Part shown: in pieces, positions 1,775-54,496 of the stretch | Layout of the letters: every line of letters begins with the position of its first letter | Position numbering within the stretch: position 1 is the stretch's first letter | IMG/VR virus record: IMGVR_UViG_3300047443_000090 | Location: 23,260-87,259 of that record | Strand: one strand, 5' to 3' | Source: a virus | Length of the DNA stretch: 64,000 nt | Notes under the pieces: model-generated | Seen by the model: only the letters and a program-made list of their open reading frames with translations | What the model was told of the DNA's origin: nothing | Databases searched by the model: none | Position numbers and translations under genes: made by a program

Positions 1775-1821
1775 CGTGTTTCCTCCGTACCGCCGCGCCC
1801 AGTGCGCCGCCCATAACCGCT

Positions 1822-1850
1822 ACTGTATGCGCTCACGAAATAAGAGTCAA
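1822..1850 (-). promoter_or_regulatory. Early-type promoter with conserved operator, copy 1
   Basis: Read on the minus strand: TTGACT (1850-1845), a 17-base spacer, TACAGT (1827-1822). The block GTGAGCGCATAC (1836-1825) covers the end of the spacer and the start of the -10. It is shared by all six promoters of this class, which suggests one repressor or activator binding them all. It drives the gene at 1774. Confidence 0.8.
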
Positions 1851-1867
1851 GCGGTTTATGCAGCAGG

Positions 1868-3879: not shown

Positions 3880-3928
3880 GTGGTGCCTTATGTGTGCTGG
3901 CCGCGCCCACGCGCCGCCCTTGTTCGAT

Positions 3929-3957
3929 ACTGTATGCGCTCACGTTTACGGCGTCAA
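3929..3957 (-). promoter_or_regulatory. Early-type promoter with conserved operator, copy 2
   Basis: On the minus strand TTGACG (3957-3952), a 17-base spacer, TACAGT (3934-3929), with the invariant GTGAGCGCATAC block. The predicted start is near 3922, about 40 bases before ATG 3879. A plus-strand late-type promoter begins 22 bases to its right, so the two are divergent. Confidence 0.8.
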
Positions 3958-3979
3958 GAGTTATTTGCGTGGGCCGCTA

Positions 3980-21654: not shown

Positions 21655-21685
21655 GACGGCCCCCGGTGCGTTGTTGATACTGCGT

Positions 21686-21714
21686 AGTGTATGCGCTCAC
21701 ACATTAAGCGTCAA
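21686..21714 (-). promoter_or_regulatory. Early-type promoter with conserved operator, copy 4
   Basis: On the minus strand TTGACG (21714-21709), a 17-base spacer, TACACT (21691-21686), with GTGAGCGCATAC intact. It drives the 21654-19504 unit. Confidence 0.78.
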
Positions 21715-21730
21715 GCTGTTTTTGGGGTAG

Positions 21731-22672: not shown

Positions 22673-22700
22673 TGCAACCTCCGTGTGTTTGTATGTCGCT

Positions 22701-22729
22701 ACTGTATGCGCTCACGTTTATTGCGTCAA
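22701..22729 (-). promoter_or_regulatory. Early-type promoter with conserved operator, copy 5
   Basis: On the minus strand TTGACG (22729-22724), a 17-base spacer, TACAGT (22706-22701), with the invariant block. A divergent late-type promoter lies 30 bases to the right. Confidence 0.8.
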
Positions 22730-22758
22730 GTGTTTTTTTGCGACGGCGCAAATGAGCA

Positions 22759-22799
22759 GGAAAACAGGCGGCCCCGGCGCATCGCCAGCCAATGACAAT
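22759..22799 (+). promoter_or_regulatory. Late-type promoter, copy C (predicted leaderless start)
   Basis: GGAAAA at 22759-22764, 29 bases, GACAAT at 22794-22799. The ATG of the antirestriction gene at 22805 lies six bases after the hexamer, where transcription should start, and has no Shine-Dalgarno. Confidence 0.62.
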
Positions 22800-22804
22800 G
22801 GCGT

Positions 22805-25159
22805 ATGGACAAATTCGCTTATATCGACCACGCCGCGCACTCCGGGGCGAACGGCAACAACCAGCGCCAAGAGGCGACGCAGGCCCAGCAGGACGCCGGG
22901 AACTATGCCAAGGGCCGCTTGACCCTGCATGGCCTGCGCATCGCCATCGAAACGCCGCGCGGCACCCGGCGCGAGTGGCGCGCAAAGGACGGCACCAGCG
23001 GTAGCAACCTGCTGAAGTTCCACTACGGGTACTTCGAGGGCATAAGGGGCGCTGACGGCGACGAGCTGGATTGCAGCATCGGGCCGTGGCCTGAAGCTCC
23101 GCTCGCTTACGTGGTGAACCAGTACATGCGCGGCCAGTTTGACGAGCACAAGGTAATGCTGGGGTTTCCAGACCGCCGCACGGCAATCGCTGGCTACCTG
23201 AGCAACTACAGCCCCGGCTGGCAGGGCATGAATAGCTGCATTTCCTGTTCGATATCGCAGCTCAAATGGTGGCTGGCAAACGGTAATTTGAAACGCCAGC
23301 TCACGCAAGATCAACTCCCCTATGAAGGAACGGACGACACGATGGAAAAGGTACTTTGGGATAGCGCGCACAATCCGATGCGCTCGACGCTCGACAAGGT
23401 TTTGTACAGCCTGCGCGAGCATGACGCGGGCAATGGCCTGCTGTTCGACGCGGTGAGCATGGCCGAGATTCTGGCCGACTCGGACGGCGTGATGACGCTG
23501 GACGCGCTGGTTCTCCCCTACGCCCGGATTGAGCAGCGCATGACGCTGCTGCAAAAGGTTCTGGATCGCGCGGGCGAAGCCGTCAAGGTGGCCGCTATGC
23601 AGGTGTCCGAGCCATTCACGCAGCGCGGCTCGACCAACGTCGCAGTAATCTACGAGCTGTCGGACGGCCAAACCATTTCTATTTTCTTCCACAATCCCGA
23701 TGTGACGCCGAAGAAAATCACGCCAAGCGATGACGTGATTTCGTGGAAATGGCTGTTGAACAAAAAGGACATCACCGTTGCTGTCGCGCCGGAACGTGGC
23801 CGCGACCTGGACGTTCGCACGGTGGCATCGCGCATCATGCGGCTGGCCGAGAAAAATAGCGCCCGGTTCATCGCCGCCAACGGCAAGCGCGCCGAAAAGC
23901 TGCAAGTGATTTCCGACCTGAAGGGCGAGCTGGAAACGAAGAAAGAAACCCTGAGCGGGCTGGAGCGCCAGATTGAGGTTGCGATGCAGGAGCGCGAGCT
24001 GGCGGGCTTGGACGAGCCGCCAGAGCCTATCGTCCCGCCCGAGCCTGAACCGGAACCGGCCCCAGCGGCTACGCTGAACGTGGACGGCATCAAGGCCGTG
24101 ATTACGTCTGACGAGCCTATGCCGGGCGTCGCCGTGGGCGCGAACTGGGTAGTGATGAACGCCCCGCGCCCGCTGCTGGGCACCGAAACGATGTCCGATG
24201 GCGAATTCCTCGACGGTCGTTTCTACGCTGCCATCGACCCGAACGACTACATGGCGCAAGCCTACGTCGATGCGAACGTGAAGCTCGCTGCGAGCGTGGT
24301 GTTCGTGGCTGACGAGGCGACGCAGACCGAAATGGCGCTCAACACGATCAATCAGGACTACCTGCCCGCCTACATGAAAATGGACGAAGGCGAGCGCAAG
24401 ACGGCTCTGAGCGGCTTCATCGCCAAGCTCAACGGCTTCACCTATGGCGCGATGAAGGAGCTGGCCGCCAAGGGTATGCCGGTGGTAGCGGAGCCAGAGC
24501 CGGAACCGCAGCCAGAACCCGAGCCGAAGCCCGAGCCTGCGCCTACGTGGCGCAGCAAGTACATCGTGATCGAGTTGGTTGACCGATTCCGCGTCGCTGG
24601 CCTCAATGCCAACCCGATCAGCCCGTCCTACCCGACGCGCGCCGAAGCCGAGGCCGCTGCCGCCGCCTATTTCGCTGGCGGCGACAACTTCCCGGCACCG
24701 TCCGACTCCGACGAATTCGCGGCGCAAGAGGCTGAAAAGTTGGCTGCTGAAAAGCGGGCCGCCGAGCAGGCCGCACGCGAAGCCGCCGAGCAGGCCGAGC
24801 GCGATGCAGAGGCGGCACGCCAAGCCGAGGCAGCAGCGCAGGCGCAGCGCGACGCGGAGGCCGCCGCAGCCAACGAGGCAGCCAATATTGTAGTGCCGGT
24901 TGCAGAGGTAGCGCCGCAGCCTGAGCCTGTAGTGGAGCCAAGCGCGACCGGCGACAATCAAGAAGCTGCCGATGGCGATTTCCTCGCGCTGGCGGCAGCG
25001 GGCGACGTGGATTTCTACGATAAGGCCGTAACCGACCGCCTCGCCGCACTGGCGAAGCAATACACCGACCCCGAAGGCGCGTATCTCGATCTGGTCATGC
25101 AGGCCAAGACCGCCGCCAAACAGTTCTTCATCGCTGAGTTCAAAAAGAAGGTGGCCTAA
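22805..25159 (+). CDS. Polyvalent protein: InPase-like plus DarA-N-like domains, 784 aa
   Basis: Residues about 37-165 match the polyvalent 'InPase' domain: GADGDELDCSIGPWPEA, YVVNQYMRGQFDEHKVMLGF and a GW..S..KWWL end. Residues about 180-395 resemble the N-terminal domain of P1 DarA, with LSDGQTISIFFHNPD, SWKWLLNKKDITVAVAPERG and a conserved AEKNSARFIAAN helix. Two Pro/Glu linkers (about 407 and 570) and a long Ala-rich coiled coil (610-700) follow. By analogy with P1 it would be packaged in the head and injected to protect phage DNA from restriction (inference). Leads the locus. Confidence 0.7.
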   Translation: MDKFAYIDHAAHSGANGNNQRQEATQAQQDAGNYAKGRLTLHGLRIAIETPRGTRREWRAKDGTSGSNLLKFHYGYFEGIRGADGDELDCSIGPWPEAPLAYVVNQYMRGQFDEHKVMLGFPDRRTAIAGYLSNYSPGWQGMNSCISCSISQLKWWLANGNLKRQLTQDQLPYEGTDDTMEKVLWDSAHNPMRSTLDKVLYSLREHDAGNGLLFDAVSMAEILADSDGVMTLDALVLPYARIEQRMTLLQKVLDRAGEAVKVAAMQVSEPFTQRGSTNVAVIYELSDGQTISIFFHNPDVTPKKITPSDDVISWKWLLNKKDITVAVAPERGRDLDVRTVASRIMRLAEKNSARFIAANGKRAEKLQVISDLKGELETKKETLSGLERQIEVAMQERELAGLDEPPEPIVPPEPEPEPAPAATLNVDGIKAVITSDEPMPGVAVGANWVVMNAPRPLLGTETMSDGEFLDGRFYAAIDPNDYMAQAYVDANVKLAASVVFVADEATQTEMALNTINQDYLPAYMKMDEGERKTALSGFIAKLNGFTYGAMKELAAKGMPVVAEPEPEPQPEPEPKPEPAPTWRSKYIVIELVDRFRVAGLNANPISPSYPTRAEAEAAAAAYFAGGDNFPAPSDSDEFAAQEAEKLAAEKRAAEQAAREAAEQAERDAEAARQAEAAAQAQRDAEAAAANEAANIVVPVAEVAPQPEPVVEPSATGDNQEAADGDFLALAAAGDVDFYDKAVTDRLAALAKQYTDPEGAYLDLVMQAKTAAKQFFIAEFKKKVA

Positions 25160-27087
25160 TGAAGCAGGGGCAAGACGAATTCTTTGCCGTCGTCGGTGAA
25201 GGCGCTGCCCTGTTGAAAAATCTGGACGAGAAATCGTCCGGGTTTTTTGACGACCTGAACCGGCTGCGGGAAATCCTCGCCATTCTCGGCTATGAGTCGG
25301 CGGTGAAGCCGCTGCAATTCTCGCTGGCCGACAAGGAAGCCTCTGCCAAGGCGCTGTGGAGCTACCTTGGCAATGGCTTGGGCCTGCTGCCGGACGCATT
25401 GGCGGTATTCGAGGCGGAAACGGTGGCTGATCTGGCATCGCTGGCTGGCGACAAGAGCCTGAACCATGCGGCGCAGGAATGGGCAATCGACAACGGGAGG
25501 AAGCCGCAGGCGCACTTGGCGACAACGAAGCTGGCCGCGTTCGAGAACCTTGCGGCGCGCGGCGTGGATCATGGCGTGGAGCAGTCCGCGCTGGAGGGTG
25601 CTATGCGGGATGCCGACACGCTGCTGGCGCAGAGCTTGGAGGATAACCCGGCGTACAGCGCAGCACGCGCGCACTATGACAAAGTGGGTAGGGATCGCAC
25701 TGAGCAACTGGCCGAAATAAGCGAGAAGATAAAAGCTGCCCGCGTGGCCCGCGATTCGCAATATGGCAAAGAGCGCGCCGAGGCAGAGCAAATTCTTGAG
25801 GACTTGCTCAACGAAAGGGCGGCTTTAGCTGCGCCACTGGACGAGGCGCAGATTGCGGCATGGGATGCGGTAAAGGCGACCCATGCGAAATTCAACGAGG
25901 ATCGGGTGGCCGGGCACCGTGCGCTATTCGAGGAAAACGGCCAGAAGATCATCGCCAAGGTGGCCGAGGCATCGCCTATTACGCCCGAGCAGGCGCAGGC
26001 GTGGGCGAGCGAGCAGATCATTGACGACAACGCCAAGGCGAAGCTCAAGCGACTGGGCTACAAGCCCGATGACGTGGTGCGCGATATGGCCGAGTTCTAC
26101 CGCCTCACTGGCGGCAAGGCGTCGGCAATCCGCATTGGCCTTGACGGTGGCCGCCGCGCGAATGCGGTGGGCATTACCGAGCGGCTGGGCGAGAAGGTTA
26201 TCAATCTCGGCGGGCACTTCAACAAAACCGTGCTGTTCCACGAGCTTGCGCACCATTTGGAGAATGACCCGATTGCGAAGGCAGCATCCAATGGATTCCT
26301 GATTAAGCGCCGAGAGAGCGAGCAGCCGCACCGCCTGCGCGACCTGACCGGCAACAAGGGCTATGACGCGCGCGAGGTGGCCTATAAGGACGGCTTCACC
26401 GACCCGTATGTTGGCAAAATCTACCGTGATGGCGTAACGGAAGTGTGGTCGATGGGCGTGCAGTACCTCGCAAACCCCAAGGACGCGGCCATCTTCGCGG
26501 CGAAAGACCCGGAAATGTTCAAGCTGATTACTGGCTACCTGACCATGCCGACGACGCCAGCAATGAGCGCCAAGCTGAATATGCACAAGGGCGCTATCGG
26601 GGATGCTATCGAGAAGAAGCAGAACAAAGAAGCCCAGTACGAGCAGGCCGTGAAATACCTCGCTGCCCAAGCCGTGATTGCGAAAGACGACTGGTTCGAT
26701 ACGCTTGACCGCGAGGGCACGGTTTATGATCTGCTGTCGTCGTATGTGCTCTACAAGGCGAAAAAAGACCCTGCGCAGTATGTCGGCTCGAACGGCGACT
26801 ACCGCGTATTTTCTGGCGTGTTCCGCAACCCGGCCACCAAGCGCAACGCCAAGGGGTACATGATTGTCGATACCAGCACTGGCGGCGACGCCAGCAGCTA
26901 TCGTCGCTCCATTCCCGACCATGAAATCATCAATGGCGATCTGGAGCAAGTGCAGGCCGTTATTGCAGTTGCCAAGACAAACGGAACTGGCCTGTTTAGC
27001 GCGGCATGGAACTATTTTAGGAATGGCTCATATAGCGACCAAAAGCAAAATCTGGTTGACTTTGTTGGCGCGGAGAAACTGAAATGA
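25159..27087 (+). CDS. Polyvalent protein with a zincin metallopeptidase domain, 642 aa
   Basis: A HELAHH zinc motif lies at residues 361-366 (TVLFHELAHHLEND), with a likely third ligand Glu in TEVWSMGVQYL about 65 residues later, as in zincin peptidases. The N-terminal 110 residues are helical, and a long coiled coil (about 190-235) precedes the peptidase. The start overlaps the previous stop by one base. In such loci the peptidase may trim co-injected proteins or attack host targets (inference). Confidence 0.7.
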   Translation: MKQGQDEFFAVVGEGAALLKNLDEKSSGFFDDLNRLREILAILGYESAVKPLQFSLADKEASAKALWSYLGNGLGLLPDALAVFEAETVADLASLAGDKSLNHAAQEWAIDNGRKPQAHLATTKLAAFENLAARGVDHGVEQSALEGAMRDADTLLAQSLEDNPAYSAARAHYDKVGRDRTEQLAEISEKIKAARVARDSQYGKERAEAEQILEDLLNERAALAAPLDEAQIAAWDAVKATHAKFNEDRVAGHRALFEENGQKIIAKVAEASPITPEQAQAWASEQIIDDNAKAKLKRLGYKPDDVVRDMAEFYRLTGGKASAIRIGLDGGRRANAVGITERLGEKVINLGGHFNKTVLFHELAHHLENDPIAKAASNGFLIKRRESEQPHRLRDLTGNKGYDAREVAYKDGFTDPYVGKIYRDGVTEVWSMGVQYLANPKDAAIFAAKDPEMFKLITGYLTMPTTPAMSAKLNMHKGAIGDAIEKKQNKEAQYEQAVKYLAAQAVIAKDDWFDTLDREGTVYDLLSSYVLYKAKKDPAQYVGSNGDYRVFSGVFRNPATKRNAKGYMIVDTSTGGDASSYRRSIPDHEIINGDLEQVQAVIAVAKTNGTGLFSAAWNYFRNGSYSDQKQNLVDFVGAEKLK

Positions 27088-28922
27088 TAACGACCGAATA
27101 CAGCGTAGCAACGCCGCATGGCGTGTTCATGGCCCAGTGGGACGAGGACGAGGAAAGCCCAGTCAAGTACAGCGGCGATGATGGTGCAATATCCTACTTC
27201 AAAGCGTATCTCGACCTGAATTCTATCTCCGGGCCGGGCGGCGCGCTGGTGCGATTCGACGCGCTGGAACCCGCCGACCTGTACGGGTTTTGCCAGTCTG
27301 AAAAGTACGGCATTTTCGTCGCCCCGACACCGGACGACATCATGGACGATATGGAACAAGAACACGAAGGACAGAAAATGATTACTGTGCTGGACGCCGT
27401 GAGCGACGCCAAAGCCTTTGAGCTGATAGGCGAGGGCGCGCAAATCCTGAGCCGTCTTAACGAGGACTCGGAAACCTTTTTTGCCGACATCGGCACGCTG
27501 CGCGAAATTATTCAGCAGTTGGGAGATGACGCCCCCGAGCAGATCATCGCGGCAGCTCTGACCGGCACGGAGCTGGGCGACTTCCCCGATACGCCCGAGG
27601 GCCGCGTCGCCCTGCGCTCCGCAGCGAAAGACTACTTCGCCAAGCTCCAAGGCACAAAGGTGTTCAATGCGTCACTGAACGCCGATATTGGCTTCGCGCG
27701 CGAAGGCATCAAAAAGGCACTCTCCTTCAGCGCTGATCCGCGCAAACTCAAGCTGATCCCAGCCCTGCCCAAAATCCTCGCCTCCGCCGTGGACGCGAAG
27801 AAGCTGGCCCTGCGCGGCGATGACCCGCGCGTGGTGGCGATGCACGTTCTCAAGGCTGATGTGGTGGTGGGCGACGCCACGCTGACGGTGCGTGTCGTCG
27901 TAAAAGAGCGCGATGATGGCTCGTTCTTCTACGACCACAGCGTAAATAAAGGGGACTTGGGTGGAAGCACGGAGGTACTCGATTCCGTCGATAGCACGGG
28001 TCTTTCGCTGATCGCCCTACTCTGCACCGAGCCGTCGATGCAGCAAGTCCTTATGGATAGTGTAAGCCAATCCGGCGAAGTGTTCAACCTGTTCATCGAA
28101 GGCGAAGCTCTGGAAGAACTCACCGCTGAAGCCGCCCCTCAACCCGAACAATACGACGTGTCCATGCAAACTCTTATCTCCATCGCTGCCAATTCCATCG
28201 CGGAGCTGCGCCGCATCGACGTGTACCGCGTGCTGAATAGCGCGGGCAACCAGCGCGAAGCACTGGCGAATTTCATCATCGCAAACCGCCCGGACTTGCA
28301 AAAGGAAGTTCTGGACGTGATGGCCGAGGAATGGCCTGAGCTGGGCTACAGCGCCCCGGCTGCGCCTGCGGTGGCGGGCGGTGGCAATGCCGAGCTGGAG
28401 GCGGCAGGGTTCAAGAACGTGAGCGGCAACGAGTGGGCCAAGGGCGTGCAGGGCGAGAGCGGCAAGCTCAACCTCAACATTCGCGTGTTCGGCACCCCGG
28501 AGCAGTTCAAGCTGAAAAAGTCGGCATCGTTCACTGGCGGCATCAGCGGCTCGCCATCGCAAGAGGTGGGAACCTACAACACCGCCGCCGAAGTGGTCGC
28601 AGCGGCGCAAGCCGAAGCCGCAGCCTATGCGCCCGCCGCCGAGCTGCTGACCCCGAGCGAGGACGGCCAGCCCAAGCAGCTCGAAGTGCCGCCAGTGCCG
28701 GAAGCTGGCAAAGCGCCCGAGGCAACGCCGCAGCGCGCCGCCGACATTACCTTCCTGAGCGCGGTAATCGCGCACCAAGTCGATATGTGGGCCGATGATC
28801 TGGCCGACAAAATCGAGGCGCTGGGCGGCACCTATGCGGGCGATGCCGAGGTAGAAAAGCTGTGGGGCGACGCCATCAACGCCTACACCGATTTCATGTC
28901 TGCGGAAATGTCCAAGGGCTAA
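27084..28922 (+). CDS. Polyvalent-locus protein with LPD3-like domain, 612 aa
   Basis: Residues about 1-90 are a compact alpha/beta domain. A helical DarA-like segment follows (LNEDSETFFADIGTLREIIQ, a pattern also found at the start of the 642-residue neighbour, NLDEKSSGFFDDLNRLREIL). Residues about 240-290 (VAMHVLKADVVVGDATLTVR then SFFYDHS) resemble the LPD3 domain of large polyvalent proteins. The last 200 residues are Ala/Pro-rich with a small domain near 420-480. The three genes overlap and end at the terminator at 28959-28996. Confidence 0.6.
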   Translation: MITTEYSVATPHGVFMAQWDEDEESPVKYSGDDGAISYFKAYLDLNSISGPGGALVRFDALEPADLYGFCQSEKYGIFVAPTPDDIMDDMEQEHEGQKMITVLDAVSDAKAFELIGEGAQILSRLNEDSETFFADIGTLREIIQQLGDDAPEQIIAAALTGTELGDFPDTPEGRVALRSAAKDYFAKLQGTKVFNASLNADIGFAREGIKKALSFSADPRKLKLIPALPKILASAVDAKKLALRGDDPRVVAMHVLKADVVVGDATLTVRVVVKERDDGSFFYDHSVNKGDLGGSTEVLDSVDSTGLSLIALLCTEPSMQQVLMDSVSQSGEVFNLFIEGEALEELTAEAAPQPEQYDVSMQTLISIAANSIAELRRIDVYRVLNSAGNQREALANFIIANRPDLQKEVLDVMAEEWPELGYSAPAAPAVAGGGNAELEAAGFKNVSGNEWAKGVQGESGKLNLNIRVFGTPEQFKLKKSASFTGGISGSPSQEVGTYNTAAEVVAAAQAEAAAYAPAAELLTPSEDGQPKQLEVPPVPEAGKAPEATPQRAADITFLSAVIAHQVDMWADDLADKIEALGGTYAGDAEVEKLWGDAINAYTDFMSAEMSKG

Positions 28923-28931
28923 AAGCGACGA

Positions 28932-28972
28932 GGAAAACCGCCGGAATTCAGGCAACGAACGGGCAGCATACT
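28932..28972 (+). promoter_or_regulatory. Late-type promoter, copy D, nested in a terminator
   Basis: GGAAAA at 28932-28937, 29 bases, CATACT at 28967-28972. The hexamer lies at the top of the terminator stem, so transcripts starting near 28979 would contain only the descending arm and escape the hairpin. The DarB-like gene starts at 29016 after GGAAG. Confidence 0.6.
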
Positions 28973-28996
28973 TAACTGTACGCTGCCCGTTTTTTT
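28959..28996 (+). terminator. Terminator of the 22805-28922 unit
   Basis: ACGGGCAGC (28959-28967) pairs with GCTGCCCGT (28982-28990), followed by six further T residues. The 14-base loop holds most of the -10 and the predicted start site of late promoter D. Confidence 0.85.
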
Positions 28997-29015
28997 CACC
29001 TGACCCGGAAGTTTA

Positions 29016-32000
29016 ATGAGAATTTTTGACGACACTTCACCCGGCAACCCACTTGCCAATTTCAAGCTCGCCGCCGAGTTTGCCAAGCTCAAAAAAGAGC
29101 GCACGGCCATAGCGGATCAAACCGACAGTGCATCCCGCCTGCGCCTGCTGAAGATCGGCGTTCGCATTCGCGCGATCATACTGGAGCTGGGCAAGCGCCC
29201 TGCCCCTGCCCCTGCGCCAGCGCCGACCCAGTTGCAGGGCACGCCCGCAGCCGACACGGCGAAGTATTACCCGGAGGAAGGCAAGCGCACCAAAGGCCAG
29301 CGCCAGAAGGACAACAATGCGGCCATCGCCCTACTGGCGAAGATCAAGGCTGGCGAGGTTGCCGTAACCGACGCCGAGCGCGAAGTGCTGGCGAAGTACA
29401 GCGGCAATGGCGGCGGCCTGACGGACGCCAACGGCCTTACCGGCTCGCCATACGAGTATTACACCCCGAAGCCAATCGCGGGCGCGGTGTGGGGCTTGCT
29501 GGAAGAACTGGGCTTCAAGGGCGGCACCGTGCTCGACCCATCGGCAGGTTCCGGCGTATTTACTGCCATGCGCCCAGCCGGTGCTGTGATGACGCAGATT
29601 GAGCTGGATGCAACTTCTGGCGCGATCAACGGCGCAATCAATGACGGCCCGACCGTGAGCACGACCGTTTCCCCGTTTGAGGCGGTGGCCGCCGCGACGC
29701 CGGATGAAATGTACGACGCCATCGTAACCAACGTGCCATTCGGTGATCTGGCTATGCGCGGCGACAACCCGGAAAAGGACAAGCGTTTCCAGAAGTCGAA
29801 CCTGCAAGAGTATTTCGTTCTGCGCTCGCTGCAAAAGCTGAAGCCGAACGGGCTGGCCGCGTTCATCGTGCCGAAGTCCATCATGAGCGGCCTGTCGGCC
29901 AAGGAATCGAAGCTGCGCCTGAGCGCGTCGATGATGGCCGAGTTTGTCGGCGCGTACCGCTTGCCGAATAGTATTTTCACTACGGCGAGCGCCGACGTGA
30001 CGACTGACCTGATCGTGTTCCGCAAGTTCTCGCGCGAAGCGGCGACGAAAATCGCGGAGCTGCAAGAGCAGAACCCGGCTTTGCTGTCCCAAGCCAATGT
30101 GCTGTGGGATGAATTCCTGAGCGGTAAATACTTCGCTGGCGCGGGCCGCAAGTACATTTTGGGCGAGGAAGGCACGACCAACGGCAAATACGGCGAAGTG
30201 GCCGCCATCATCAACGACGACAGCATTGCGAACATCGCCAAGCTGATTAAGCGTTTCCCGCACTCGCATATCGACTGGGCGCTGCTGAATGCCACCGAAA
30301 CCGCGCCTATCGTCTACAACGACGGCGACGTGATCCATGCGAACGGTCAAACGCTGGAATTCAAGGACGGCCAGTGGGAAGCGCTCGACTCCAATTCCGC
30401 CGAAGATAAGACCATGCAGGCTCTCGGCCCGAAGATGCAAAAGCCGCTGGATTGCGTCAACAACGGCATCACTTGGGAGCAGGCGAAAAAATGGATGGAC
30501 TATGAGGGCATCAAGGGCCGCCATATCTCCATCCCATCATGGCTGGTGGCAGTCGGCAAGGCGTCGGACGGCATCCCCCAAAGTGAGTTTCAGGGCTGGT
30601 GGGAGGCAATCGCCGCTGGCCTGTCCGTCATGGGTCTGATGCAGGAATCGAGCAGCGTTGAGCCGTACAACTACAAGGATGGCTACCCTGTCCTGTCGGC
30701 GCAGCTCGCGCGCGTCCAATCCTACGGCAACAAGACCTTTGGCCGGGCCGCCAAGCTCATCAAAGACGGTTTGCTGAGTATCCGCAATGCGCGCGCCAAA
30801 GGCGCTTATACGCCGTTCTGGCTGGGCGAAATCCGCGCAAGCCAAGACGCCGTGGCGCTGACCCCTACCCAGCTCTACGAAAAGGTGAAATACGAGGCCG
30901 AAGATGAATCCGGCTACGTCACCGTGGATCGTCTGCGCGAGGCTATGCCCGACTTCGACCCACTGGAAAATGCCGAGTGGTGCGTGTCTGCTGATGGCAA
31001 GTCCGTGACGCACGCGAACGACTACTACAGCGGCAGCTATGCCGACTTCCTGCAAAATGCAGCCGCAGAGCTGGAAGCCTGCAACGACCCGGCTATCCGC
31101 GCCAAGCTGGTGATGCAGCACGACGCCGCGAAAGAGCGCTTGAACATGGTCGATGTGTCGTCCATGACGTTCAACCTGTTCACGCCGCACATTACGATGC
31201 TGCAAAAGCTCGAATTCCTGCGCGCCTACGTCAGCCCCGACATTTTCATGACGACCGACGCCAACGGGCGCGACGTGTTCGACATCAAGCAGCCGTCGCT
31301 GGGCAAGTTCGCATCCGAGGAAGAAGCCGCAAAGCATAAGTCCATGCAGCGGTTCGTCAAGGGCTATCTGAAGAACCAGAACATCACGACGCAGAGCAAG
31401 GCGACCGACGTGGAGGACGACCCGGCGAAAGAGGCAGCGCTGGTGATGCGAATCAAGGAAATCGCGGACAAGGCGAAGGCCCAATTCGATGCGTGGGCGC
31501 GCGCCAACGACGAGATTCAGGCCGGGCTGCACACTCGCCTGAATTCGCCTGACGCGCTGCGCTTCATTCAGGAGCCGGACGGCACGCCGCTGGACATTCC
31601 AAACCTGAATGTGGCCGACTTCAAACCGCACCCATACCAGTATGGCGCGGTGCGCCGTTTCTCCCGCAACTTCGGCGGCGTGCTGGGCTTCGACGTGGGC
31701 CTTGGCAAGACCCTGACCGCGCTCGCGGCTACCCAGTATTGCCAGAGCATCGGCGTCAAGCGAAAGACCGGCTTCGTCGTCCCGAATGCGACCCTGACCA
31801 ACTGGAAAAAAGAAGCGGGTAAGGCGTATCTGGACACGTCCGATTGCCTGTTCGTGGGTCTGGTGGTCAAGAATGGCAAGAGCAAGATTGACGCGGCACA
31901 GGTCAAGGCTGATCTGAATGCGATCCGCGAGAACCGCCACGCGAAAATCTTTATGACGCTGGAAGCGTTCAAGATGATCCCGGTGCGCGACGAAACGATG

Positions 32001-35000
32001 GCCGCCTACGTCACCTACCTGACCGAGAACGACGACGCTTACCTGCTGGCCGAGGAAGACGCCAACAAGAAAAAGGCCAACATCGCCGCCGATGCCAAGT
32101 CGAAGAACGTCAAGGCGACCGGCGAGAAGTCCGGCGCTATCCCGTTCTTCGAGGATATGGGCATCGACAGCTTGGTGCTGGACGAGGCGCACAATTACAA
32201 GAACAGCAAAATGACCAGCTCCCAGTTCAAGGGCGCGAAGTATTTGGCTGACCCGAGCAAGTCGCAGCGCGGCATGGATATGCAGGCTAAGGCGTGGTAC
32301 GTGCGCGGCCTGACTGCGCGCAATGACGGCGTGCTCTCCCTGACCGCTACCCCAGTCACCAATTCGCCGCTGGAAGTCTACGCCATGCTGACGCTGGCAC
32401 TGGGCGAGCGCGAAGTGAATGCTATGTACGGCGTGAGCGGTGCAGACTCGTTCATGGCGGGCGCGTGCGATATCGAAGAACGCGACGAGGAAAACATCGT
32501 CGGCATCGTTCGCCCGATCCGCGTTTTCAGCGGGTTGCAGAATGCCGGGCTGCTGCGCCGCCTGCTGCAAACCTCCGCAGTCATCAAGACCGCCGAGGAC
32601 GTAAAGGCCGATGGCCTGAATATCTCTGTGCCCGACGCTGACGAGGTTGATACTTCGGTCGATATCGGCCAAGAGTCCTTCAACAAGATCATCGCCTACA
32701 AGGAAGAATACATACTGGCGGTAGCGGCGGTGATGGCCGGTGGCGCATCCGAGGAAGACAAGTTGGCCGGTAGCCCGTTCAACCTGATCCGCAAAATGAC
32801 GAAAGTCATCAACGATCCCGAGCTGGACAGTGGCGTGTTTGTGTTCAAGCACGACAAGGCGCAGGCCGACGCCGCAGCCAAGGCAATCGCCTCGTTCAAC
32901 GCCAAGAACATTGTTGAGGAACGCGACTACAGCGACGACAACGCCGACCCGGCAGACATCAAGACGCGCATCATCAAGGACGTTGAAACCGGCCAGTCCG
33001 TGACCAAGTTCCTTATCACGGTGCGCGCGCGGGCGGCCTCCAGCGGCAAGGCAATCGAGCTGCTGTCTACCGACTACGAAACGCAGGAGGCGCTGCTGAA
33101 GCTGCTGGCCGCGAACGGCATTGAGCCGGGCGTCAACATCAGCCCGAAGCTGGCCGCCGTCATCGAGAACTTCCGCGCCGAAGCTGCTACGCCCCGCTGG
33201 ATGGGACAGGCCAAGCAAATCATTTTCTGCGACGAATTGAGCCTGCACCACAAGATCAAGCTGGCGCTGACGCAGGCCGTGGGCGTGGCGTCGGGCAAAA
33301 TCAAGATCGTCAACGCCGTGTCGGTCGATACTGCCGGTATGCAGGACGTGCAGGACGGATTCAACGCCGATGGCGAGGAAAACAAGTACACCGTCGTCAT
33401 CGCCAACAAAAAGGCGGAAGTCGGCATCAACCTGCAAAAAGGCACGCAGGCGATTCACCACATGACTATCGGCTGGACGCCTGACTCGATTCACCAGCGC
33501 AACGGGCGCGGCGTCCGTCAGGGCAACCCGGTCAGCAAGGTCAACGTCTACCACTATGACGGCGAGGGCACCTTCGACGGCTACAAGCGCAAGCTGGTGG
33601 GCATCAAGGCCGATTGGATTGGCTCGCTGATGTCGGGCGATTCTTCTTCGATCAAGATCGAGGGCGATATGTCCAAGGAAGATTACGAAATGCTGGCGAA
33701 CGCCGTGGGCGACGCTACCGCGATGACTCGTATCAGCGAGGAAATCGAGCTGCGCAATCAGCGCCAGAAGCGGGCCGCCATGAAGGTGTCCCAGCTCCAA
33801 AGCCTGCGCATCATCGAGGCGCAAACGCAATGGCTGGCGAAGTTCGGCGTGGTAGCAGGCCGAGAATCGCAGGGCTTTAATGCCTGGATCAAGAGCAAGC
33901 TGGCCGCAGCCGCTACTACCCGCAATACCATCAGCGGCTTGCGTGTCCGTCTGGATGAAACGGAAGGCCCGATTCTGGCCGCTCGCCTGCGCAAGCAGAT
34001 TGCCGAGCTGGAAGCCAAGCGCGTTGAGCAGTTGGCGATGCTGGGCGGCCTCCCCGTCGATTCGTCCGGCACCCCGATTGCGCCGACGAACGACTGGAGC
34101 GGCATCAGCGATGAAATGAAGCAGACCGCCGCCTATGCGAACTGGCAGAAGGCCGTCAACATCGCAGGGCGCATGTCTGACGAGGCCGCCGTGAGTTTCA
34201 ACGCTCGCGCAAGCGATGGCTATTCTACCGATGCACTGGAAGCGTTCAAGACCGGCGACGCGGCAATCATTGCCGGTGCGCTGGCGATGGTTGGCGACTT
34301 CGTAGAGCATGAGGGCTCGCTGATGGTAGTGCGCCAGCCTGTCTACCAACGTAGCGGCACGGAGCTGGAAGGCTACGACCCGGTAGGCAAGGCAAGTACC
34401 ACGCTGCTGCGCTTGACTGGCGCGAAGTTCGTCACGAAAGGCTCCCCGGCGTGGGCGGCGTCTGTGCAGCGCGCGGTGGCGCTCGATGTCGCAGCCATTG
34501 AATCGACCACTTCGGGATTCTCTGCCGGTAGCGTCTACCTGTATTCCACGTTCATTGCTGACGTGCGCGAATCCCTGCCGGTGGCGATCCCATCGCAGTC
34601 GATGTCTGCCGATAGCTTCACGTTCCGCGCGCCTGTGTTCCCGTTCCCTATCCGCGAGGACAAGAAAGGCGGCGCGATGACGGAGCAGATCAAGGCCGAG
34701 CAAGCGCCGCTGATTAAGTCGTTTGACCGCTACGGCTACATTTCGCTGCACGACCTCCGCAGCGTTGGTGAGGCTGTGCGCGGCACGAGTGAGGCGAAGG
34801 TGATGGCTTTGCGCGTGTACGCTATCGCCCACAAAATGCGCGCAACGCCTGATGATCTGATGGAAATCGTTGGCACTGACGTGAGTGGGACGCTTGAATC
34901 GCTTGGGACATTGAACGACTTTTTCAAGGCGCTGCCGAGCGGCGTTGCTGGCGTGAAGTCGCCCGATGAATTGGACGCATGGGCGCTGGCGTGGATGAAC

Positions 35001-35831
35001 GCCAATCAGGAATTGGTGCAGGTAGACGACTTGCAAGCCGCGCTGGGCTACAAGTTCAAGGGCTACCTTGCTACCGCCAACAAGATTGACGACGGCAAAG
35101 AGCGCTGGTTTAAGGTCGGCGTGGAGCAGAAATACTACTTCCACAAGCAGGCGACGGAAGCGCTGCGCGATGCTGTCTCCAATGGCCTGCTTACCGATGC
35201 CCTTATTGATGAATCGTCGTCATACACGGTGCCAACTTGGTTTGTTTCGCATAACCGTGATGCCTTTGCCGGTGTCCTGTTCACCGAAAACGGCGAGTAC
35301 CGCGAGCTGAAAGTCGGCGTCGAGGAATTGCGCGCCCACATGGGCCTCAATGCCAAAGCGCGCCTTTATGTCGAGAACATGGGCGATGCAATGTCTCTGG
35401 TGAGCTACTTTGTCGAGAGCGCATGGGCTAATCTGAAGGCTCTGGCGAAGAAGTGCAAGGCCGTGGCTGCGCTCGATGCCGCTGGCGTGGACGTGGATGG
35501 AATGCTGAAGGCTCTGAATGGCATTCCCGGTATATTATCTGCCACGCTGGGCATCAAAGACGAAATGAAGCCAGTGGATCGTTATTCGGCCAGCTATCTG
35601 TACAGGGCAAACGAATACGTCCTGCTGAAAACGGTGCGCGGTTCGGAAACGCATGAGAAAATCGCTTCGGCGGGCGCTGCTGGCCTGCAAGGGCGCACGT
35701 TCGATAATACTGCAAAAGCGTTCCGCGTGAACCTGAAGGACAGCGAGGTATTCAGCGACGGCAAGCCGGTAGCATCGGTCGCAACACTGTTCGCGCACTT
35801 GGGCTTGAACATCAAGGACTTCACCCTGTAA
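29016..35831 (+). CDS. darB: DarB-like antirestriction protein: methyltransferase plus SNF2-type helicase, 2271 aa
   Basis: Near residue 171 motif I of an adenine methyltransferase appears (VLDPSAGSGVF), with a catalytic-type NVPF at 239-242. A superfamily 2 helicase follows: Walker A DVGLGKT at 893-899, DEAH at 1056-1059, SLTATPVTNSP near 1108, and motif VI HQRNGRGVRQGN at 1493-1504. The layout and length (a little over 2,200) match P1 DarB, which is packaged in the head and protects injected DNA from type I restriction. The last 400 residues are unassigned. NVPF replaces the usual NPPF/Y. Confidence 0.8.
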   Translation: MRIFDDTSPGNPLANFKLAAEFAKLKKERTAIADQTDSASRLRLLKIGVRIRAIILELGKRPAPAPAPAPTQLQGTPAADTAKYYPEEGKRTKGQRQKDNNAAIALLAKIKAGEVAVTDAEREVLAKYSGNGGGLTDANGLTGSPYEYYTPKPIAGAVWGLLEELGFKGGTVLDPSAGSGVFTAMRPAGAVMTQIELDATSGAINGAINDGPTVSTTVSPFEAVAAATPDEMYDAIVTNVPFGDLAMRGDNPEKDKRFQKSNLQEYFVLRSLQKLKPNGLAAFIVPKSIMSGLSAKESKLRLSASMMAEFVGAYRLPNSIFTTASADVTTDLIVFRKFSREAATKIAELQEQNPALLSQANVLWDEFLSGKYFAGAGRKYILGEEGTTNGKYGEVAAIINDDSIANIAKLIKRFPHSHIDWALLNATETAPIVYNDGDVIHANGQTLEFKDGQWEALDSNSAEDKTMQALGPKMQKPLDCVNNGITWEQAKKWMDYEGIKGRHISIPSWLVAVGKASDGIPQSEFQGWWEAIAAGLSVMGLMQESSSVEPYNYKDGYPVLSAQLARVQSYGNKTFGRAAKLIKDGLLSIRNARAKGAYTPFWLGEIRASQDAVALTPTQLYEKVKYEAEDESGYVTVDRLREAMPDFDPLENAEWCVSADGKSVTHANDYYSGSYADFLQNAAAELEACNDPAIRAKLVMQHDAAKERLNMVDVSSMTFNLFTPHITMLQKLEFLRAYVSPDIFMTTDANGRDVFDIKQPSLGKFASEEEAAKHKSMQRFVKGYLKNQNITTQSKATDVEDDPAKEAALVMRIKEIADKAKAQFDAWARANDEIQAGLHTRLNSPDALRFIQEPDGTPLDIPNLNVADFKPHPYQYGAVRRFSRNFGGVLGFDVGLGKTLTALAATQYCQSIGVKRKTGFVVPNATLTNWKKEAGKAYLDTSDCLFVGLVVKNGKSKIDAAQVKADLNAIRENRHAKIFMTLEAFKMIPVRDETMAAYVTYLTENDDAYLLAEEDANKKKANIAADAKSKNVKATGEKSGAIPFFEDMGIDSLVLDEAHNYKNSKMTSSQFKGAKYLADPSKSQRGMDMQAKAWYVRGLTARNDGVLSLTATPVTNSPLEVYAMLTLALGEREVNAMYGVSGADSFMAGACDIEERDEENIVGIVRPIRVFSGLQNAGLLRRLLQTSAVIKTAEDVKADGLNISVPDADEVDTSVDIGQESFNKIIAYKEEYILAVAAVMAGGASEEDKLAGSPFNLIRKMTKVINDPELDSGVFVFKHDKAQADAAAKAIASFNAKNIVEERDYSDDNADPADIKTRIIKDVETGQSVTKFLITVRARAASSGKAIELLSTDYETQEALLKLLAANGIEPGVNISPKLAAVIENFRAEAATPRWMGQAKQIIFCDELSLHHKIKLALTQAVGVASGKIKIVNAVSVDTAGMQDVQDGFNADGEENKYTVVIANKKAEVGINLQKGTQAIHHMTIGWTPDSIHQRNGRGVRQGNPVSKVNVYHYDGEGTFDGYKRKLVGIKADWIGSLMSGDSSSIKIEGDMSKEDYEMLANAVGDATAMTRISEEIELRNQRQKRAAMKVSQLQSLRIIEAQTQWLAKFGVVAGRESQGFNAWIKSKLAAAATTRNTISGLRVRLDETEGPILAARLRKQIAELEAKRVEQLAMLGGLPVDSSGTPIAPTNDWSGISDEMKQTAAYANWQKAVNIAGRMSDEAAVSFNARASDGYSTDALEAFKTGDAAIIAGALAMVGDFVEHEGSLMVVRQPVYQRSGTELEGYDPVGKASTTLLRLTGAKFVTKGSPAWAASVQRAVALDVAAIESTTSGFSAGSVYLYSTFIADVRESLPVAIPSQSMSADSFTFRAPVFPFPIREDKKGGAMTEQIKAEQAPLIKSFDRYGYISLHDLRSVGEAVRGTSEAKVMALRVYAIAHKMRATPDDLMEIVGTDVSGTLESLGTLNDFFKALPSGVAGVKSPDELDAWALAWMNANQELVQVDDLQAALGYKFKGYLATANKIDDGKERWFKVGVEQKYYFHKQATEALRDAVSNGLLTDALIDESSSYTVPTWFVSHNRDAFAGVLFTENGEYRELKVGVEELRAHMGLNAKARLYVENMGDAMSLVSYFVESAWANLKALAKKCKAVAALDAAGVDVDGMLKALNGIPGILSATLGIKDEMKPVDRYSASYLYRANEYVLLKTVRGSETHEKIASAGAAGLQGRTFDNTAKAFRVNLKDSEVFSDGKPVASVATLFAHLGLNIKDFTL

Positions 35832-35840
35832 CCAGACCGC

Positions 35841-35862
35841 CGCCCCTTCGCCGGGGCGGCAC
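35841..35862 (+). terminator. GC-rich hairpin after the DarB-like gene
   Basis: GCCGCCCC and GGGGCGGC form an 8-bp stem with a short TTCGCC-type loop, nine bases past the stop. Only a purine-rich stretch follows, not a T run, so it may attenuate or stabilise rather than terminate. Confidence 0.4.
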
Positions 35863-35877
35863 TGAAGGAATAAAAAT

Positions 35878-36291
35878 ATGAGCGATACCGATTACAAGAT
35901 TGACCCCGAATTCCTGCGCGGCAAACTGGCCGGGCTGCAAAAGCAAGTTGGCGCGGGCAAGCCGCTGCTGCCGATTTTCGTTGAGCAGACCCGCAAGGTG
36001 CTGGCGAAAGACCAGAATAACTACCTGCGGTATGGCCCCTACTGGTGGGCTATCAAGCGCATCCTGCGCGCGGGCGGCGTGGCCGTGGGAACCTACGACG
36101 AGCCGATGTGGGCTACCGAGTACGAAATGAAGGGCGATGACGGCAGCGTGAGCGCTGAAATCACTTTGCTGGCCGCGTGGGAGTTCGCAGAGGACAACAT
36201 GGGCCAGTTCGGCGTGCTGACGAATGAATACGAGCTGGACGGTCGCACGTTCGTTCTGTTCGACCCGGATCAGACCGGGCGCGGCAAGTAA
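35878..36291 (+). CDS. Hypothetical protein, 137 aa, end of the antirestriction unit
   Basis: An AAGGAA site precedes ATG 35878. The protein is helical with NYLRYGPYWWAIKRILRAGG in the middle, then a beta-rich C-terminus (YELDGRTFVLFDPDQTG). It lies 46 bases after the DarB-like gene and before a strong terminator, so it is probably co-expressed with it and may be co-packaged (inference). No family recognised. Confidence 0.6.
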   Translation: MSDTDYKIDPEFLRGKLAGLQKQVGAGKPLLPIFVEQTRKVLAKDQNNYLRYGPYWWAIKRILRAGGVAVGTYDEPMWATEYEMKGDDGSVSAEITLLAAWEFAEDNMGQFGVLTNEYELDGRTFVLFDPDQTGRGK

Positions 36292-36301
36292 AAGCAGGTT
36301 T

Positions 36302-36326
36302 AAGCCCGGTTCTCCGGGCTTTTTTA
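36302..36326 (+). terminator. Rho-independent terminator of the DarB-like unit
   Basis: AGCCCGG (36303-36309) and CCGGGCT (36314-36320) pair around TTCT, followed by a T run. The same terminator and the promoter behind it occur on the minus strand at 1822-1894. Confidence 0.88.
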
Positions 36327-36347
36327 TTGCCTGCTGCAAAAAACCGC

Positions 36348-36376
36348 TTGACGGCATAAACGTGAGCGCATACAGT
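36348..36376 (+). promoter_or_regulatory. Early-type promoter with conserved operator, copy 6 (plus strand)
   Basis: TTGACG at 36348-36353, a 17-base spacer, TACAGT at 36371-36376, with GTGAGCGCATAC at 36362-36373. It is the only copy on the plus strand and drives the small genes at 36423 and 36679, separating them from late control. Confidence 0.8.
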
Positions 36377-36422
36377 ATCGGTTATGTGCTGCGCACCGCG
36401 CGGCAGGCAACCGGAGAATAGT

Positions 36423-36602
36423 ATGAACGCAACCATCACCAGCAAGACCATCAATGCTTCTTTCGCTAGAGCTGGAACCCGCGTCGAAGTGATCCGCAAG
36501 TGCGCCGATGACGAGTGCATCCTCCCCAACGCTTACATCGTCCGGTTTGCGAACGACATACGGATGCGCCTTCATGCGCTCGATCTGGCGATTGACGCCT
36601 AA
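36423..36602 (+). CDS. Small hypothetical protein, 59 aa
   Basis: ATG 36423 lies 40 bases after the predicted start of the promoter at 36348-36376, with GGAGAATAGT upstream. The protein is beta-rich (GTRVEVIRKCADDECILPNA) with two cysteines six apart. It is under early-type control although placed between late units, so it may act in lysogeny or early infection (inference). No family recognised. Confidence 0.6.
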   Translation: MNATITSKTINASFARAGTRVEVIRKCADDECILPNAYIVRFANDIRMRLHALDLAIDA

Positions 36603-36611
36603 ACAACCAGT

Positions 36612-36628
36612 GCCCGCCCCGAGCGGGC
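36612..36628 (+). terminator. Short hairpin, possible attenuator
   Basis: GCCCGC and GCGGGC pair around CCCGA, followed by only TTTG. It lies between the two small early-controlled genes and may reduce expression of the second. Confidence 0.4.
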
Positions 36629-36678
36629 TTTGTCAGTAGAAGGCGGCGCACTGAGCGCGGCGATAATTGGAGAGAAGC

Positions 36679-37204: not shown

Positions 37205-38803
37205 ATGCTACAAGAACAATCCTCCAAAGCGCGCGGCTTTTTAGCCAAGGTGTTCGGCTCGAAGAACGTAGCCGCGAATACCATAACCGATGTCGAGCAG
37301 CAGGACGCCTTGACGGATGGCCTGTCTATTTCTACCCTGCTTGGCAGTACCAAGCGCAACGCCAGAAACCGCCAACAAATCTACATGAAGTGGCTCGATA
37401 TGATCGGTGATCCGATTGTATCGACCGCATTGCGCCTGCACGTCACGGCGGCGCTGGGCGGGCACGAAACATCGGGCGATGTCGTTTTCATCGAGAGCGC
37501 GCCGGAATTCAAGGATGACAAGGCATCGCAGAAGATTGTCGATGAACTGCGCGCAGACCTCACCGGCATATTCAACCGCATTGCGTACACCGTCGCGTTC
37601 AACGGCGCGGGCTACGGCGACGCCTACGGGCGCGTGTACACGGACGGCAAGAACGGCGTTGTTGATGTCTACGTGGACGAGATTGTCCATCCGTCGATGG
37701 TGACAGCCTACGAGCGCGGAAACACGACTGTGGGCTTTGTGGTCGCATCCGGGCAGAGGTTCACCGAGCGGCTGGACTTGCAACAGATGGCGCGCATGAA
37801 GATGCCGCGCATGGTCTACATTCCGCAGGTTCGCGCCTTGGAAAAGGCGATCCGCATCGCGCTCAAAGAAGATGATATCAACGCGCTCCCGATCCTCCCA
37901 GCCCTGTTCGGCGGATCGTTCCTAGACAGCGCAGAAGGCCCGTATGACGCGCTTTCGGCTGCGTTGGCTGGCTTGGTCGGCCAACGTGTTCTGGATTCGA
38001 TTGACGAGTCTATGCTGACCGTCAATATGGACTCGATGACGAAGGAGCAGCGCAAGTCCTACATGGTCAATCTGAAGGCCATTTTGACCGCCTCGAAGAA
38101 GCGCGCCGAGGACGCAATCAGCAGCGGCAAGCCGGTTCTGTCGCGCGTCTATAACATCATGCCCACGTATGGCGAAAAGCAGTTGACGGCGCTTAACGGT
38201 AGCCTGACTGGCGGCGGCGGGCGCGGCCAAAGCGGCAGCATCAGTATTGAGGACGTTCTGTTCCATGCAAAGCTGCTGTCCGGCGCAATCGGTATCGACC
38301 TCTCGATGCTGGGCTTTGCCGAGCTGCTGTCTGGTGGTCTTGGCGACGGCGGGTTCTTCCGCACGTCTGCGCAGGCCGCCGAGCGCTCGCGCCTGCTTCG
38401 CGTGGGGATGACGGAGTTTTTCAACCACATCATCAACATTCACACCTTCAACAAATACGGCATGGTCTACAAGCCGAACGAGCGCCCGTGGATGGTCAAC
38501 TTCTACGGCTCCATTTCCGCCCTTGAATCCGAACGGCAGCACACGAAAACCGAATCCATGAATACCGGCGCGATACTGGCGCAAACGCTGGCCCAGTTGC
38601 GCGACTTGCGACTTGATGACAAGTCGCTTACCGAAATTCTGACCAAGGTGATGCTGATGGATGAGAAGCAGGCCGAACTGATCGTCAAGGGCATGGCAAA
38701 GCCGCCGCCTGAAGATGGAGGCATGGGCGATATGGGCGGCGGCGGGCCGGGCGGCTTCGGCGGCAAGCCTGATGGCGCAGACTTTGGCGCGGGGCAGGAA
38801 TGA
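37205..38803 (+). CDS. Portal protein, 532 aa
   Basis: The N-terminal third has WLDMIGDPIVSTALRLHVTA followed by a strand-rich stem (VVFIESAPEF), then a wing region with YGDAYGRVYTDGKNGVVDVY, as in portal proteins of contractile phages. A hydrophobic helix pair near residues 345-380 (HAKLLSGAIGIDLSMLGFAE) fits the crown and stem. The C-terminus is Gly/Pro-rich. The dodecamer would sit at one capsid vertex, take DNA from the terminase and bind the neck. It leads the operon under promoter E. Confidence 0.75.
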   Translation: MLQEQSSKARGFLAKVFGSKNVAANTITDVEQQDALTDGLSISTLLGSTKRNARNRQQIYMKWLDMIGDPIVSTALRLHVTAALGGHETSGDVVFIESAPEFKDDKASQKIVDELRADLTGIFNRIAYTVAFNGAGYGDAYGRVYTDGKNGVVDVYVDEIVHPSMVTAYERGNTTVGFVVASGQRFTERLDLQQMARMKMPRMVYIPQVRALEKAIRIALKEDDINALPILPALFGGSFLDSAEGPYDALSAALAGLVGQRVLDSIDESMLTVNMDSMTKEQRKSYMVNLKAILTASKKRAEDAISSGKPVLSRVYNIMPTYGEKQLTALNGSLTGGGGRGQSGSISIEDVLFHAKLLSGAIGIDLSMLGFAELLSGGLGDGGFFRTSAQAAERSRLLRVGMTEFFNHIINIHTFNKYGMVYKPNERPWMVNFYGSISALESERQHTKTESMNTGAILAQTLAQLRDLRLDDKSLTEILTKVMLMDEKQAELIVKGMAKPPPEDGGMGDMGGGGPGGFGGKPDGADFGAGQE

Positions 38804-54128: not shown

Positions 54129-54496
54129 GCACTATTGATTGGAAACGCGGCGACAGCTTCCTCGTTGAAGAACTGGGAATGCTGAAGCCTGACCCTGACG
54201 GCACCCTCAAGATGATCGTCAACGGCGAGGAAGTGCCCGCCTCCGCGCTTGATATGACCGGCTGGGCCGTCGCGTCGCAGATTCGCCGCAAGGATAGCGA
54301 CGAGCTGGTGTGCGACTTGGAATTCGCGTGGGTCAATCAGGTTCAAGGCAGCTACCGCCTTCAGGCAAAGGACACGTCGGCATGGCCGCTGGCGATGCTG
54401 TCATGGGACGTGCAATTCACGAACCCGGACGGCTTTATCTCGTCGTCCGAAACCATGTTCATTCGCTGCAAAAAAGATCAAACGAGGGCCGCATGA
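54125..54496 (+). CDS. Tail-fibre-associated protein, 123 aa
   Basis: Beta-rich: STIDWKRGDSFLVEELGMLK, then GWAVASQIRRKDSDELVCDL and WDVQFTNPDGFISSSETMFI. Proteins of this type (W.GD.F at the N-terminus and Q-strand pairs) sit before fibre genes in many tailed phages and are thought to be structural. Both ends overlap neighbours as ATGA. Confidence 0.55.
   Translation: MSTIDWKRGDSFLVEELGMLKPDPDGTLKMIVNGEEVPASALDMTGWAVASQIRRKDSDELVCDLEFAWVNQVQGSYRLQAKDTSAWPLAMLSWDVQFTNPDGFISSSETMFIRCKKDQTRAA

Follow-up and report, generated by a model that had tools for sequence, protein, structure and literature searches.

How can several large and otherwise unrelated proteins of one phage be brought into the same head? 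The question is raised by a locus in which darA, a gene for a protein with a zincin motif, an LPD3 gene, darB and ulx share one orientation and lead up to the portal gene, in a 64,000-base window (the whole stretch of DNA analysed, positions 23260-87259 of the 87,259-base viral record IMGVR_UViG_3300047443_000090). The five open reading frames (ORFs) of a preliminary description of the locus are all intact, and the domains which it had claimed (InPase, DarA_N, LPD3-like and DarB-like parts) were recovered in Pfam and PHROGs searches. Domains, PHROGs matches and portal context bear out its comparison with P1 antirestriction proteins and place a P1-like dar locus in a myophage of P1 type, and to this the present analysis adds Ulx, Hdf, the P1-like genome context and a set of common terminal modules. 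Judged by its sequence, the locus is a new, divergent Dar (defence against restriction) cassette, ordinary in kind, from a P1-like myophage. Such cassettes are already known; what is new is that otherwise unrelated Dar proteins have terminal modules in common. We favour the reading, which we hold to be fairly probable, that this Dar cassette loads its cargo via two short helical modules of this sort.

Within the window, BLAST aligns residues 9-44 of the zincin-motif protein with residues 112-147 of the LPD3 protein (50% identical, E 5e-6) and finds the DarA C-terminus similar to that of the LPD3 protein (pairwise E 4e-4). Iterated profiles started from these matches define the modules N1, N2, Ct and Ct2. 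An N-module heads DarB, the zincin-motif protein and the LPD3 protein of the window, while Ct ends DarA and the LPD3 protein, in the latter as predicted helices 549-562, 573-583 and 588-611 downstream of a disordered linker. Reversed and shuffled decoys gave zero matches to N1, N2 or Ct at E <= 0.05, and across the whole record (755 ORFs, both strands) the modules occur in the four large Dar proteins only. The isolated modules have no significant match in Pfam, and no description of the N1/N2 and Ct modules was found in the literature searched, including the available portions of PMC9024508, PMC12810830, PMC5512222 and PMC12707154, which are cited below to the extent of those portions.

The modules keep to their ends, recur on unrelated cargo and are absent from the other ORFs examined. 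A search of IMG/VR with DarA and DarB profiles yielded 154 loci; with Xanthomonas phage Rb1, ABMM1, P1 and the window, 158 loci gave 127 groups, among them 56 resolvable DarA-to-DarB cassettes. The other 71 groups, outside the cassette counts, are contig ends, loci with one of DarA and DarB only, and P1, which is set aside because its two operons lie apart. Gene calling was mechanical, and the small ORFs called between DarA and DarB may include some that are not genes. Modules are carried by 108 of the 149 cassette proteins of at least 400 amino acids (aa), against 0 of 307 ORFs of at least 250 aa outside the cassettes. A terminal Ct was found on DarA in 48 of the 56 cassettes and an N-module on DarB in 35, and DarB never has Ct, nor DarA an N-module. 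Among 7299 distinct plus-strand ORFs of the fetched loci, Ct was found at 79 places, 77 of them no more than 25 aa from the C-terminus; of the 78 proteins with this tail, 77 have it at their end, and internal copies are rare (loci L033 and L159 only). The type 2 tail, Ct2, is C-terminal in 15 of 15 cases and is homologous to Ct (hhalign E 7e-7; none of 60 column-shuffled nulls scores as high). N1 lies at DarB N-termini and on other cargo, namely zincin-motif proteins, a stand-alone InPase (L183), an LPD3 protein (L167) and DdrA-like proteins. N2 was found on 14 proteins, which are zincin-motif proteins, LPD3-type proteins and one DarB. At the bacterial-genome locus L204, N2 starts both DarB and the zincin-motif protein, and N2 can therefore substitute for N1 on DarB. 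The two N-modules appear related (hhalign E 1e-4 and probability 57%, with a score of 21.3 where 60 nulls reach 13.3 at most). A two-fold internal repeat (p <= 0.05) is present in 47 of 56 distinct N1 copies, compared with 10 of 71 in the Ct control; the N1 copy of the window DarB has no significant repeat (p 0.59).

The DarA and DarB profiles also fetched 46 loci from bacterial genomes, many of them Betaproteobacteria (e.g. Collimonas, Pigmentiphaga, Pusillimonas and Nitrosomonas); 25 overlap the training set, so 21 count as independent. On these 21 loci, Ct or Ct2 ends all 14 of the proteins that carry it, and N1 or N2 is found on 12 proteins, in 11 of which it starts within the first 100 aa. 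In L199 (Vibrio owensii), a DarA with a terminal Ct2 is followed by a 103-aa N1 protein. An improbable explanation of such a distribution is that the modules have no targeting role, and either were left behind as ancestral polyvalent proteins split and fused or are sites at which the zincin or the prohead protease processes the proteins. Proteins of these loci do fuse and split, as evidenced by a segment of the LPD3 protein lying inside DarA of L090 and L092 (see below), and P1 DarA and DdrB undergo proteolytic processing (PMC5512222). The rarity of internal Ct copies and the near-constant terminal position of the tail argue against this explanation, as does the prediction of Ct as a well-formed fold conserved on unrelated cargo.

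Loading via terminal modules can be compared with what is known of P1, where six Dar proteins are virion components (PMC9024508), DarA-Hdf pairs sit on the inner shell of the head and loss of DarA or Hdf strips the remaining Dar proteins from the head (PMC12810830). The authors of that earlier work suspected a common head signal, and BLAST gave none (PMC9024508). When profiles trained without P1-like loci were run on 644 P1 ORFs, the top N1 match was DdrA residues 7-45 (E 3.1e-4; next 0.31) and the top Ct2 match DarA residues 598-628 of 639 (E 0.0045; next 0.45), at the C-terminus that is unresolved in P1 DarA (PMC12810830). The P1 DdrA N-terminus is also a two-fold repeat (p 0.001). PHROGs, an independent library not built in the present analysis, points the same way: isolated DarB N1 modules match its DdrA model phrog_1855 more often than any other family (3 of 23, best E 3.6e-4), and in the whole record, where no stand-alone DdrA was found, the sole match of this model is the DarB N-terminus (E 0.0047). 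The family-wide comparison thus proposes a common Dar head signal and places it in P1 DdrA and the C-terminus of P1 DarA, where it is testable. The P1 DdrA C-terminus was rejected as a Ct module, the hidden Markov model not recognising it. That each module binds the capsid shell or DNA directly, as an independent head-targeting tag, seems to us unlikely. Residues 1-30 of P1 DarB do suffice to target a reporter into the head (PMC9024508), and unrelated cargo carries the modules; but in P1 the absence of DarA or Hdf removes the other Dar proteins, and shell binding alone is therefore insufficient in P1 (PMC12810830).

In the reading that we favour, DarA and Hdf would line the head interior, as solved for P1, and the zincin-motif protein, the LPD3 protein, DarB and Ulx would be late-made cargo, loaded with DarA and Hdf and injected with the DNA. 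DarB (methylase and SNF2 translocase) and the DarA/Hdf group may then protect this DNA in cis against type I-like restriction, as judged from P1, where Dar acts in cis, also against BREX (PMC12707154). Cargo would bear an N-module (an N1 or N2 helical hairpin, with a visible tandem repeat in most N1 copies) near the N-terminus, DarA and intermediate proteins a C-terminal three-helix Ct on a flexible linker, and DdrA-type proteins would be little beyond an N-module and Ct joined; the modules would draw cargo to the DarA-Hdf layer within the head. We infer that they serve as signals for head targeting or for docking on the DarA scaffold because the anchored DarA never carries an N-module, Ct is never found on DarB, the cargo with which the run ends, and intermediates may have both. 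More tentatively, the modules could form a portable packing code of P1-type phages in which the N hairpin, with P1 DdrA as prototype, binds the C-terminal tail, with the P1 DarA C-terminus as prototype, effectors (methylase-helicase, metallopeptidase, pyrophosphatase, LPD3 and ParB proteins) load on DarA-Hdf once they have acquired a terminal module, and DdrA is a bare adaptor. If the common signal proposed above is real, it would offer a general way to find injected phage proteins, by scanning for the modules and reading off the cargo.

A doubtful variant has Ct and N dock as a heterotypic pair, in the manner of multienzyme docking domains, which would order the proteins in a chain of DarA, (DdrA), zincin or LPD3 protein and DarB. 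The strict polarity of the modules on DarA and DarB is consistent with such a pair, as are the presence of both modules in 22 of 29 two-gene cassettes, DdrA-like proteins with N1 and Ct2 (L005, L031, L159 and L196, the last of 132 aa) and the published P1 incorporation order of DarA/Hdf, DdrA, DdrB, DarB and Ulx (PMC12810830). Module types, however, largely track the descent of the carrier protein, the zincin-motif protein has N2 but no Ct, and in a permutation test on the 27 cassettes with three or more proteins adjacent Ct and N modules faced each other across gene junctions at chance (20 against 19.2 expected, p 0.43). A chain strictly in gene order is consequently unsupported, and this last result also counts against module-based loading as such.

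Several further points weigh against such loading. At the thresholds used, Ct was undetected in 8 of 56 DarA and an N-module in 21 of 56 DarB, module detection being incomplete in divergent cassettes; zincin-motif proteins gave no match to Ct, and Ulx and Hdf none to either module. The kinship of N2 and N1 comes from a single profile comparison, and the P1 DdrA C-terminus is suggestive of Ct2, with 1 of 60 nulls reaching its score. P1 DarB, the bearer of the proven signal, has no N1 match, residues 1-30 included. In this the modules differ from that signal and the T4 capsid targeting sequence, which are likewise short N-terminal segments sending internal proteins into heads (PMC9024508), as they do in being common to several proteins and having a C-terminal counterpart.

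Head packaging of the cassette proteins is itself well grounded by homology to P1, and packaging with injection, as the preliminary description proposed, would be their most likely fate given the P1 virion Dar proteins. That the cassette acts unpackaged in the infected donor cell, e.g. through a methylase made early, is very improbable: the P1 homologues are virion proteins (PMC9024508), PHROGs matches in the cassette include minor head and virion structural proteins, and a late-type motif lies upstream. The AGGAAAAC pattern, with at most 2 mismatches, has 16 matches against 7.95 expected, and 0 of 100 shuffles reach 16. Its GGAAAAC motif precedes darA and darB, the portal gene (37135) and genes at 42279, 45258 and 49719, and in 10 of 11 relatives inspected GGAAAA occurs 46-106 nt upstream of darA and/or darB. 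The late promoter class ascribed to the locus thus stands as far as the motif goes and is plausible for the cassette, its timing being read from sequence. As a late or dar promoter, the 43-bp repeats near darA are ruled out, because they read as sigma70-like promoters facing left. These repeats lie leftward at window positions 1817-1859, 3924-3966, 21681-21723 and 22696-22738, with one rightward copy in the gap 36291-36667, and read TTGACG-17-TACAGT with a conserved GTGAGCGCATACAGTA core; they are probably early promoters with a common operator. Between the ulx and portal genes, the rightward copy is followed by a 72-aa ORF (36384-36602).

Coordinates of the cassette, its modules and associated features in the window
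Feature	Position	Strand	Basis or remark
AGGAAAAC-type motif before darA, candidate late promoter	22758..22771	+	46 nt upstream of darA
DarA homologue, 784 aa	22805..25159	+	Pfam; solved P1 DarA 9ukm_I match E 6.8e-25
InPase domain (DarA aa 26-157)	22880..23275	+	Pfam E 2.1e-40
DarA_N domain (DarA aa 230-352)	23492..23860	+	Pfam E 7.5e-45
Ct module (DarA aa 725-774)	24977..25126	+	C-terminal tail common to LPD3 protein
Zincin-motif (DdrB-like) protein, 642 aa	25159..27087	+	HELAHH, P1 DdrB similarity
N2 module (zincin-motif protein aa 6-44)	25174..25290	+	predicted helical hairpin
HELAHH metallopeptidase motif (aa 361-366)	26239..26256	+	putative third ligand E428 in TEVWSM
LPD3 protein, 612 aa	27084..28922	+	Pfam; predicted structure
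N2 module (LPD3 protein aa 109-147)	27408..27524	+	two predicted helices, moderate confidence
LPD3 domain (aa 175-283)	27606..27932	+	Pfam E 1.7e-19
Ct module (LPD3 protein aa 557-604)	28752..28895	+	three predicted helices, block pLDDT (predicted local distance difference test) 86-96
AGGAAAAC-type motif before darB	28931..28944	+	~85 nt upstream of darB
DarB homologue, 2271 aa, adenine methylase and SNF2 helicase	29016..35831	+	Pfam, PHROGs
N1 module (DarB aa 13-59)	29052..29192	+	DarB N-terminus; related to P1 DdrA N-terminus
NVPF methylase motif IV (DarB aa 239-242)	29730..29741	+	family norm
Ulx homologue, 137 aa	35878..36291	+	PHROGs 'Ulx-like anti-restriction' E 3e-20; beside darB
P1-like portal	37205..38803	+	532 aa; adjoins darB-ulx
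Hdf homologue, 163 aa	44651..45142	+	phrog_1620 E 4.3e-40; second DarA_N domain of record

The NCBIfam DarA model matches the window DarA at E 3.4e-24, yet its 85 bits fall short of the whole-protein cut-off, which is 350, and the InPase region also matches the C-terminal part of the gp19 portal 9b41_L (E 2.9e-33). The joining of InPase and DarA_N in one protein, highlighted in the preliminary description, is present but not special, being found in 44 of the 56 cassettes, a count biased upward because a query containing the two domains together served to fetch many of the loci. DarA length varies from 452 to 2061 aa across cassettes, and LPD3 or ParB domains lie within DarA in some cassettes and in separate proteins in others. 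In DarB the methylase and SNF2 helicase motifs are intact, with Pfam matches to N6_Mtase (E 1.7e-11) and SNF2-rel_dom (E 2.2e-9) and PHROGs matches to phrog_11801 (2000 bits) and to phrog_10089, 'DarB-like antirestriction'. PDB sequences gave no match to DarB at E <= 0.001, and PADLOC gave generic helicase and methylase matches only. The suggestion that NVPF marks a different DarB activity was not upheld: of 112 distinct DarB-like sequences collected by motif pattern, 109 have NVPF and the other 3 NIPF, and NVPF is present in Rb1 DarB and in P1 DarB, which protects P1 DNA; as the family norm, it is no mark of altered activity. Hdf is 33% identical to P1 Hdf.

The zincin-motif protein has no Pfam or NCBIfam match, and its putative assignment draws on HExxH, a conserved TEVxSM and similarity of the HELAHH region to the P1 DdrB C-terminus (E 2.8e-9). 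H361, E362, H365, T427, E428 and M432 are invariant in 15 aligned sequences, and E428 would be the third ligand. Its AlphaFold2 model has a mean pLDDT of 87.7; Foldseek gave no PDB match at E <= 0.001, so that the zincin fold is putative, and a PDB search with the zincin profile returned weak matches only, largely coiled-coil-like. The motif of the HELAHH peptidase is thus confirmed, while its encoding as a separate protein is not special, a separate zincin-motif protein being present in 17 of the 56 cassettes. The LPD3-protein model likewise gave no Foldseek match in the PDB at E <= 0.001. A 'Mid' helical segment of this protein (aa 360-419, window 28161-28340) is found in 11 proteins, including inside the fused DarA of L090 and L092; it is a fusion or fission marker and has no match in P1.

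The P1 Dar system (hdf-darA-ddrA-ddrB and darB-ulx) likewise has a DarA_N protein, Hdf, a DarB methylase-SNF2 with NVPF, Ulx and a zincin-motif protein, and in both phages darB-ulx adjoins the portal gene. In contrast to P1, the window DarA has InPase, there is an extra LPD3 protein, darA to ulx form one run whereas the two P1 operons lie apart, and the upstream motif differs, P1 late boxes being of the AACAAGTGACT type. P1 DdrB combines ddrB-ParB and a C-terminal zincin in one protein, of which the zincin part is present here; the ddrB-ParB domain had no match in the record, in a search that also missed its control genomes. Rb1 (PQ569993) is closer, with InPase and DarA_N in its DarA (51% identity over 410 aa), a zincin-motif protein (44% over 213 aa), DarB (39% over 1907 aa), Ulx and Hdf (52%). 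It differs in having no LPD3 protein between zincin and DarB, and in an unannotated 154-aa DdrA-like ORF with N1 and Ct2 between darA and the zincin gene (PQ569993.1 55479-55943; L005 35479-35943), where P1 has ddrA. With polyvalent proteins (Iyer et al. 2017, PMC5512222) the locus has InPase, DarA-N, LPD3, MPTase and methylase-SNF2 domains in common, and Pfam finds the named domains combined in large window proteins; LPD36, which is placed before the methylase in the available portion of that paper, would by its position differ from N1.

Among DdrA-sized proteins, two (L142 5895-6239 and L149 5524-5874) were missed by the N1 profile and begin with 50 residues of near-perfect tandem repeats. 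The C-terminal part of the L142 protein aligns to the final 60 positions of phrog_8883 (E 6.2e-12), a family also matched by the window DarA.

Around the locus, the portal, tail sheath, baseplate and head-morphogenesis genes of the window match P1-type families. The portal is closest to that of Rb1 (53.5%; P1 about 27%), and the longer Rb1 portal (L005 6942-9224; 760 aa) includes a PBECR1 nuclease-like domain (aa 629-717). A tail-fibre-like ORF of 1964 aa (54310-60204) contains long internal DNA repeats, in 300-nt units that are 82-93% identical.

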